Below, piece by piece: positions 30,479-32,680 of a stretch of 64,000 nucleotides of DNA (positions within the stretch are counted from its first letter, which is position 1; the number at the start of each line of letters is the position of its first letter). The notes beneath the pieces were generated by a model. It made no database searches, was not told the DNA's origin, and saw only the letters and a program-made list of their open reading frames with translations. Source of the stretch: Lactobacillus sp. UCMA15818 (lineage in GTDB: Bacteria; Bacillota; Bacilli; Lactobacillales; Lactobacillaceae); NCBI RefSeq assembly GCF_030400225.1, contig NZ_VJYB01000001.1, positions 496,001 to 560,000 of the forward strand. Reading direction: 5' to 3'. The position numbers and the translations under genes are program-made.

Positions 30479-32416
30479 TTATTTTGTACGACTATAGCTC
30501 GCAATATCTGCTAGAATTTCATTAATAAATTCATCCTTTGTTACATTAACCGTCTTTTTTTCACCATAACGACGGACTGCAACTTGTTTGGCTGCAACTT
30601 CTTGGTCACCAACAACCAGGATATAAGGAATCTTTGTCACTTGAGCTTGACGAACCTTATAACCCATTTTTTCATTTCGATCGTCAATCGAGACACGCAC
30701 ATTGGCAGCCGTCAAACGCGCACGCAATTCCTCACAGTATGACAAATGTAAATCATTCTTAACAGGAATAATTGTAACTTGTTTTGGAGACAACCATGTT
30801 GGGAATGCCCCTTTATACATTTCTGTCAAGTAAGCTGTAAAGCGTTCCATTGTCGAAACAATTCCACGATGAATCATAACTGGGCGATGTTCTTCGCCAT
30901 CTGCACCAATATAATGCAAATCAAACTTCTCAGGTAATAAGAAATCTAATTGAATGGTAGACAAAGTCTCTTCGCCGCCTAAAGCAGTCTTCGTTTGAAC
31001 ATCAAGCTTAGGACCATAAAAGGCAGCTTCACCTTCTGCTTCAAAGTATTCCAATCCCAAATCATCCATAGCAGACTTAAGCATTTTTTGTGATTTTTCC
31101 CACATTTCATCATCATCAAAGTACTTATGTGTGTTTTTAGGATCGCGATAACTTAAGCGGAAACGATAGTCGCTAATATCAAAATCTGCATAAACGGAAA
31201 CCATTAACTGCAAAGTATTTTTAAATTCGGCCTCAATCTGGTCAGGCGTAACAAATGTGTGCCCATCATTCAATGTCATTTCACGAACACGTGATAATCC
31301 TGTAAGTGCACCAGACTTCTCATAACGATGCATCATCCCTAACTCAGCAATTCTGAGTGGAAGATCTCGATACGAACGAATATGATGATTATAGATTTGG
31401 ATATGCGATGGACAGTTCATTGGTCGTAATTCCAATAATTCACCATCCCCCATATCCATTGGGGGAAACATATCTTCACGATAATGGTCCCAATGTCCTG
31501 ACTGTTTATACAAGTCTAAGTTAGCAAGAATCGGAGTATATACATGTTCATAGCCACGAGATACTTCTTTATCAATAATGTAGCGTTCAATTGTTCGACG
31601 AATTGTGGCACCATTAGGCATCCAGTATGGCAATCCCGCTCCAGCCTTAGGATCAACAAAGAACAAATCCAAATCATTTCCAATCACGCGATGATCACGT
31701 TCACGTGCTTCTTGTCTTCTCTGCAGTTCTTCATCCAATTCTTTTTGTTTATAAAAAGCCGTTCCATAAATGCGTTGAAGCATTGGATTGCTTGAGGCAC
31801 CCTTCCAGTACGCACCAGCAACCGAAAGCAATTTAAAAATTTTAATTGAACTAACTTTTTCCAAATATGCACCTGCAGAAACATCTACAAAGCTACCTAA
31901 TTTGTGTAAAATAACTTTGCCAGAAACAACAGCTTCTTTGACAAGCTCCATTCGATAGGCGTCACCGTCCACTAAAGCTAATGCTTCTTTTTCAGTAACT
32001 GCCAAGCGTTCAACCTTTGCACCTGATTTCACAATTTCTTGCATTTTCTGTGTAATTTTATCAAACTCAGTCTCAGCAATTTGACCAGCTGCATTATCCG
32101 TGTCAAGGAAGAAACCATGCTCGCTGATGCTACATTCTCCAAACTTCATCTCTGCATATAAATCTACCATTGAGGCACCCAATAACAATGAAACAGTCTG
32201 CCATAAGACCTTCAATCCATCTTCAGAGTCTTTTGTGACAATTTCAATTTCTCCATCAGTATCTAATGGCGCATTGTAGTCAATCAAATTGCCATTATAA
32301 CGTCCAGCAACTGCTTTTTTTGCAAGACTCGTACTAATTGATTGAGCAACCGTTGCAACCGTTGCTCCATCTTCAAATTCTTTAACAGCTCCATCAGGAA
32401 ACTTAACTTTAACCAT
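30479..32416 (-). CDS. thrS: Threonyl-tRNA synthetase with a degenerate editing site
   Basis: Charges tRNA(Thr). It has 645 residues: TGS domain (1-62), editing domain (about 63-225), class II catalytic core and anticodon-binding domain. The synthetic Zn ligands are intact (Cys in RPMNCPSH, His in LGMMHRYE, His in MIHRGIV). The editing domain is full length, but its catalytic HxxxH reads Q73-T-V-S-L77 and its Cys-x3-His reads S180-A-G-A-Y184, so serine clearance should be lost. The frame is intact throughout. Controlled by the T-box at 32456-32680. A second thrS copy elsewhere cannot be excluded. Confidence 0.97.
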
Positions 32417-32455: not shown

Positions 32456-32680
32456 TCCCTGGTATACTTAAAAAAAGTACACCAGGGACGCAATTAGCGT
32501 GGTTCCACCCAAATTTAGATATTAAAAATCTCTCACATCGTTTTTAACAGGTTCGACCCGTTCCAACCAATATTGGAATAAATTCATCATGGAGGTGGTA
32601 AGTCATCACACTAGGCAGCTTGCAGTTAATGCCACTTATCCCTGATCTAGATAACCTTTTGTCCTCTGAGATATTACTTA
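32456..32680 (-). ncRNA. T-box riboswitch upstream of thrS (threonine)
   Basis: The conserved T-box sequence GGGTGGAACCACGCT lies at about 32497-32511 on the minus strand, followed by the terminator TCCCTGGTGTAC/GTATACCAGGGA (32488-32456) and a U-rich tail. In Stem I the specifier reads ACC (32597-32599), a Thr codon, followed by A and a CCTC that closes with an upstream GAGG. Uncharged tRNA(Thr) should stabilise the antiterminator and raise thrS expression. Confidence 0.93.

Follow-up and report, generated by a model that had tools for sequence, protein, structure and literature searches.

Does a bacterium whose only detectable threonyl-tRNA synthetase (ThrRS) carries replacements throughout its catalytic editing motifs still hydrolyse Ser-tRNA(Thr), and is such an enzyme an oddity of one strain? 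The question is raised by thrS (30479..32416, minus strand; 645 aa, in frame) in the window, as we call the whole 64,000-nucleotide stretch of DNA analysed. It is the sole ThrRS gene found in a genome that lies near Liquorilactobacillus mali, the ThrRS being 95% identical to the copy on NZ_JQAR01000001.1.

A full-length ThrRS with a replaced editing site

The thrS product is a bacterial-type ThrRS: it scores 664 bits against TIGR00418 (NCBIfam equivalog for thrS, cut-off 384) and has a class II core and an anticodon domain. All its domains are encoded on the minus strand. They comprise a TGS (N1) domain (residues 2-61, 32234..32413; Pfam PF02824, 48.4 bits), an N2 editing-fold domain that is full length by alignments and predicted fold (residues ~62-225, 31742..32233) but has its editing site replaced, a class II catalytic core (residues 326-533, 30818..31441; PF00587) and an anticodon-binding domain (residues 546-635, 30512..30781; PF03129). 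The gene lies downstream of dnaI and upstream of the L20 leader and infC. A probable thrS T-box leader is found at 32481..32679 on the same strand (RF00230, full-length match, E 1.5e-9, 47.6 bits versus a gathering threshold of 93). In principle, Ser-tRNA(Thr) could make this T-box sensor less responsive.

We aligned the protein with S. aureus ThrRS, E. coli ThrRS and the product of E. coli K-12 thrS. The former HxxxH motif now reads Q73-T-V-S-L77 (32186..32200, minus strand) and the former CxxxH motif S180-A-G-A-Y184 (31865..31879, minus strand); the codons of Q73 (32198-32200) and Y184 (31865-31867) fall exactly at the two ends of the span given in the preliminary description of this DNA. 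An editing-competent ThrRS has H73, H77, C182 and H186 (E. coli numbering); the window's enzyme has Q73, L77, S180 and Y184 at these positions. In the wider site, G95, a substrate-binding residue according to PMC7302879, is replaced by cysteine (codon 32132..32134, minus strand), Y104 by L104 and K156 by R155. The zinc ligands C334, H385 and H511 are all retained (C335, H386 and H516 in the window's numbering). The ORF and the alignments thus bear out the earlier claim of an in-frame, full-length editing domain with both motifs replaced and zinc ligands kept. That claim had extended to "every" editing residue, which holds for the four named positions but not for the wider site, where D180 is retained as D178. 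Pfam tRNA_SAD scores only 20.6 bits against this ThrRS (cut-off 24; 25.4 bits in the genome search), and 60.2 and 61.3 bits against ThrRS from Periweissella and from another family, respectively.

PMC4041444 reports that E. coli ThrRS C182A and C182S lower the editing kcat more than 500-fold, H73A 7000-fold and H186A 70-fold; PMC7302879 has the seryl group captured by G95 together with H73. The window's enzyme is the counterpart of C182S plus H73Q, H77L and H186Y, and would therefore combine several independently disabling changes. Judging from these residues and the E. coli mutants, the sole ThrRS found in this Liquorilactobacillus has very probably lost cis post-transfer editing of Ser-tRNA(Thr), which remains the best reading, as the preliminary description had proposed. 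Sequencing error and chance were rejected as causes: 14/14 genomes read from the genus lack H77, C182 and H186.

Under this reading, threonine would still be bound via the unchanged zinc site and charged onto tRNA(Thr). Serine would occasionally be charged onto tRNA(Thr) as well, and the resulting Ser-tRNA(Thr) would no longer be hydrolysed by this enzyme because the residues activating the A76 2'-OH and holding the seryl group are gone. N2 would stay as a folded scaffold, probably for contact with the tRNA acceptor arm or for enzyme stability. The absence of activity is here inferred from the residues. Against it, PMC4787780 holds that misacylating ThrRS, as a housekeeping enzyme, is selected against.

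The loss is shared by most sampled Lactobacillaceae genera

We scored the four E. coli positions in 149 Lactobacillaceae genomes, which represent 40 genera (140 of 141 sampled, plus nine further genomes from the genus of the window; G076, 65% complete and without a ThrRS match, was left out). The editing site is lost in 120/149 genomes and 32/40 genera. Since G054 contributes two copies, these genomes yield 121 lost copies. None of the 121 has H77, C182 or H186, and 11 retain H73. Within the genus of the window, H73 is absent in 12 of the 14 genomes and retained in G009 and G010. Of 80 named loci chosen for their closeness to the window, only that from Periweissella fabalis is intact; the site is lost in the other 79. 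The preliminary description had treated the replacements as a peculiarity of one enzyme and had proposed an alignment to related lactobacilli; that alignment turns them into a trait of most sampled genera, and the scale of the cis-editing loss far exceeds what had been supposed.

An intact site within the family was found in Periweissella alone (5 genomes, 1/40 genera). The remaining 24 genomes, from seven genera, have what we call a half-type site, with both HxxxH histidines, K156, D182 and L186 in 24/24 (loci L150, L157, L226, L236, L246, L247, L253, L255, L257, L260-L263, L265, L266, L268-L272 and L277-L280). Outside the family, the four-residue set is present in 56/56 genomes read (out of 103 sampled from eight other Lactobacillales families). 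A rough Bacilli-wide screen (PF07973 at E≤1e-7, counts by eye) gave one match in 3/3 Lactobacillaceae; of 296 other genomes, 3 had one match and 293 at least two. This only hints that ThrRS editing loss is rare elsewhere in Bacilli, because the second match may be another tRNA_SAD protein. Three genomes outside Lactobacillaceae (G296, G341 and G349) have a single strong tRNA_SAD match and may represent editing losses or assembly gaps.

Some residues of the editing site persist in part of the 121 lost copies (D180 in 68, K156 in 40, Y104 in 28, H73 in 11), which would count against a full loss of editing. The replacing letters vary by genus, being mainly F/L/Q/V at position 77, G/S/A/E at 182 and V/L/Q/I at 186. 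Such variation resembles decay and not one new fixed active site. Genome sizes in the lost clade span ~1.2-3.5 Mb over its 32 genera, and the family as a whole is not, to our knowledge, confined to hosts.

Copy number and architecture vary in a few places. One contig, G054:C1, carries two similar ThrRS genes (L233 and L234), neither with an editing site. A genome from another Lactobacillales family (G247) has three ThrRS-like genes (L312, L313 and L314), two of them divergent, with 34-37% identity to the window's; L313 and L314 fell under the similarity filter and were excluded from every count. In two Lactobacillaceae genera (codes g3 and g6) the TGS domain is absent from ThrRS and the editing site is lost too: only 17 aligned residues precede N2 in 11/11 copies (L233-L235 and L243-L245 in g3; L250, L258, L259, L264 and L267 in g6), and Pfam TGS gave no match in the two g3/g6 ThrRS tested. 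In these genera the N-terminal module has thus been eroded further.

A probably ancient loss

A tree of 94 ThrRS rows, built from catalytic and anticodon columns only (L143 and L302 flagged for long branches), places Lactobacillaceae in one clade (100/98), and three state changes suffice to explain the site states. The lost rows fall on one side of a single branch, which has weak support (47/15). Monophyly of the half-type rows was not rejected (p-AU 0.479). These patterns therefore fit one complete loss among lactobacilli plus a separate C182D/H186L change; the data are compatible with this history but do not prove it. An ancient loss, common to most sampled Lactobacillaceae genera, is the best reading. 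Periweissella joins the seven half-type genera inside the family (100/96). We rejected horizontal replacement as the source of its intact gene; vertical retention is simpler because the gene sits with half-type genera within the family.

N2 is retained under relaxed constraint

We compared mean pairwise differences within groups, with at most 1500 pairs drawn at random from each. For N2 the difference is 0.537 in the lost clade, about double the 0.262 of intact relatives, and it is 0.253 in the half-type. The catalytic domain differs little between lost and intact groups (0.147 versus 0.157), as does the anticodon domain (0.425 versus 0.377). TGS divergence is also raised in the lost clade (0.51 versus 0.338), and the change therefore reaches beyond the editing domain.

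By a simple counting method over overlapping pairs, which makes the values indicative only, median N2 dN/dS is 0.127 for lost copies (377 pairs), 0.073 for the half-type (9 pairs) and 0.087 for intact copies (43 pairs). Catalytic-domain medians are 0.022, 0.010 and 0.045, respectively, and the N2-to-catalytic ratio is ~5.8 in lost versus 1.9 in intact pairs. Hence, N2 in the lost clade is under purifying selection with relaxed constraint. Its length is 160-169 residues in 121/121 lost copies, and the predicted N1-N2 model of the window's enzyme (mean pLDDT 95.3) matches structures 1nyq, 1qf6 and 1tje. Together, length, dN/dS and predicted fold suggest that the scaffold is kept; N2 looks like a retained scaffold whose hydrolytic pocket drifts freely.

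Purifying selection on N2 could also reflect leftover or new activity. N2 might have acquired a further function, or a different substrate, by which its fold is preserved; the confident fold prediction, the dN/dS of ~0.13 and the narrow length range would agree with this. We nevertheless judge it improbable, as the site letters differ among genera, no common new motif was seen, and a structural need is the simpler cause.

The half-type invites a different proposal. Its N2 is as conserved as that of intact relatives, which would support a working His-His-Asp site. Lactobacillaceae might then represent a two-way natural experiment on the oxidation-sensitive Cys182, with the half-type as an oxidation-proof editing site. 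We regard this as speculative and rather unlikely: according to PMC4041444, C182A/S and H186A each cut E. coli editing strongly, and the cysteine is kept in every one of the 56 genomes read from the order's other families.

How serine-for-threonine errors may be handled

Loss of cis editing by N2 leaves three explanations for how the cell copes with Ser-for-Thr errors: fidelity of the synthetic site, a trans-editing protein, or tolerance. All three address these errors only and are compatible with the loss itself.

Firstly, the synthetic site might keep fidelity by stronger kinetic rejection of serine or by tRNA-dependent pre-transfer editing, which would make N2 editing dispensable. PMC4787780 catalogues such mechanisms for other synthetases whose editing domains have degenerated, and four catalytic-domain positions (window 244, 247, 347 and 493) differ systematically between lost and intact copies. 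However, 244, 247 and 347 are mostly changed in the half-type too, and the window keeps the ancestral Leu at 493. Residues M332, C334, R363, H385, Y462, T482, Q484, H511 and R520 are invariant over the 206 ThrRS sequences compared, so that 0/9 checked synthetic-site residues differ between groups; C334, H385, H511, R363, Y462, T482 and Q484 are kept in 121/121 lost copies. The invariance gives no sign of tighter serine rejection at these residues, although it is not proof. A scan for columns that are conserved among intact copies but altered in lost ones returned no zinc ligand and no checked synthetic-site residue. We consider fidelity of the synthetic site possible but doubtful.

Secondly, Ser-tRNA(Thr) may be cleared by another protein. 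The preliminary description had raised a second ThrRS and called for a search of the genome for one or for a free-standing editing domain. Searching the source genome with ThrRS at E≤10 returned, apart from the gene itself, only three weak partial matches (25-33% identity), which lie in two other open frames, and a PF07973 search for AlaX or a free ThrRS editing domain found alaS and thrS only. The AlaX negative holds for this genome; some relatives may encode AlaX beyond the matches listed in the family-wide PF07973 search of 161 genomes. PF02580 (DTD, the route to archaeal DTD-like ThrRS-ed) has one match in the genome, a 150-codon frame. PF04073 matches in four places. One lies in a frame of 583 codons that we take to be ProRS, and the others are in three small proteins. 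These three free-standing INS-family deacylases beside the ProRS insert are candidates for a trans-editor. Among them is L317, which looks ProXp-x-like (nearest structures 1wdv and 2cx5) and whose specificity is not evident. The other two have likenesses that point elsewhere, since L316 is YbaK-like (TIGR00011 131.6 bits, under the cut-off of 153; best structures YbaK) and L318 is ProXp-ala-like (nearest 1vki and ProXp-ala).

E. coli YeaK (ProXp-ST1), used to look for an orthologue, gave no strong match and scored at most 27.9 bits (phmmer) against the open frames of 23 INS loci; L316-type frames among these loci scored at least 71.7 bits against L316. Against trans-editing, one free-standing INS protein each was found in six further lost genomes, every one from a different genus (G016, G017, G021, G022, G023 and G024), and all six proteins are of the L316 type (87.8-100.9 bits). 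In G015 and G018 a protein of the L316 type is accompanied by one of the L317 or L318 type. The YeaK, PF07973 and INS searches apply to the families named and are blind to others, or to a Ser deacylase unlike YeaK. On this evidence, trans-editing seems a rather weak prospect.

Finally, the cell may simply put up with Thr-to-Ser mistranslation or even benefit from it, a proposal made for Mycoplasma. The searches of the source genome gave no compensator of known kind, and reviews describe editing-defective ThrRS with mistranslation in Mycoplasma. Tolerance is a reasonable suggestion, if still short of probable, given that other editing parts look retained. AlaRS of the same genome retains HTATH and CGGNH, LeuRS retains TRPDT, VPAHD and its editing domain, PheRS has a B3_4 domain at 235 bits, and the presumed ValRS retains TTRPET and TPAHD, which we take to be ValRS editing motifs. 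The cell would therefore still invest in the fidelity of other synthetases, the removal of Ser-tRNA(Ala) included.

The earlier suggestion that the loss is specific to ThrRS is sustained by LeuRS, AlaRS and the presumed ValRS, but not by IleRS (L350 in the source genome, G000:C1:398947-401742). The latter has Ser for N250 (E. coli numbering), a position presumably important to IleRS editing, and retains T241-T243, H333 and D342. Of the 61 Lactobacillaceae IleRS found we read 50; position 250 is Ser in 35 of these and Asn in 15 (counted by eye). ThrRS is therefore not the sole altered editing site.

Significance and comparison with known systems

Because the same loss occurs in most sampled Lactobacillaceae genera, many food and gut bacteria are probably without this fidelity check, or have a substitute of an unfamiliar kind. 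The family consists of well-studied food and gut bacteria in which an intact genus and an alternative-site group provide built-in controls. The tolerable level of Ser-for-Thr error thus becomes directly testable in tractable strains, which also bears on proteins produced in lactobacilli. Among the matches listed in a search of titles and abstracts of the open-licence literature we found no report on ThrRS editing in lactobacilli; an earlier mention is possible.

Compared with ThrRS of E. coli (1qf6/1tje) and S. aureus (1nyq), the window's enzyme has the same architecture, predicted fold and zinc site, but H73, H77, G95, C182 and H186 are all replaced. A mitochondrial large ribosomal subunit protein (8k2a chain Lm, presumably mL39, and others) shows the N1-N2 fold outside an editing synthetase; as a ribosomal protein, it is merely a precedent for fold retention. 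In cyanobacteria, T2 ThrRS is impaired in editing and likewise has a degenerate N2 (PMC4787780). However, T2 keeps HxxxH and CRGPH and is backed by T1, whereas here the motifs are gone and a second ThrRS was not found.

The closest parallel is with Mycoplasma. The reviews PMC7373986 and PMC9976931 locate ThrRS editing loss there, in agreement with the preliminary description, and PMC10057733 describes a wider occurrence of editing loss among host-restricted bacteria, in contrast to free-living ones. As described in these sources, the Mycoplasma enzymes have likewise lost their editing residues, and the window's ThrRS resembles the Mycoplasma type in being the sole ThrRS found, with editing residues gone and the synthetic site kept. 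Overall, Mycoplasma as portrayed there are host-restricted with reduced genomes, whereas in Lactobacillaceae the residues are lost from a full-length domain, across 32 genera with genomes of ~1.2-3.5 Mb.
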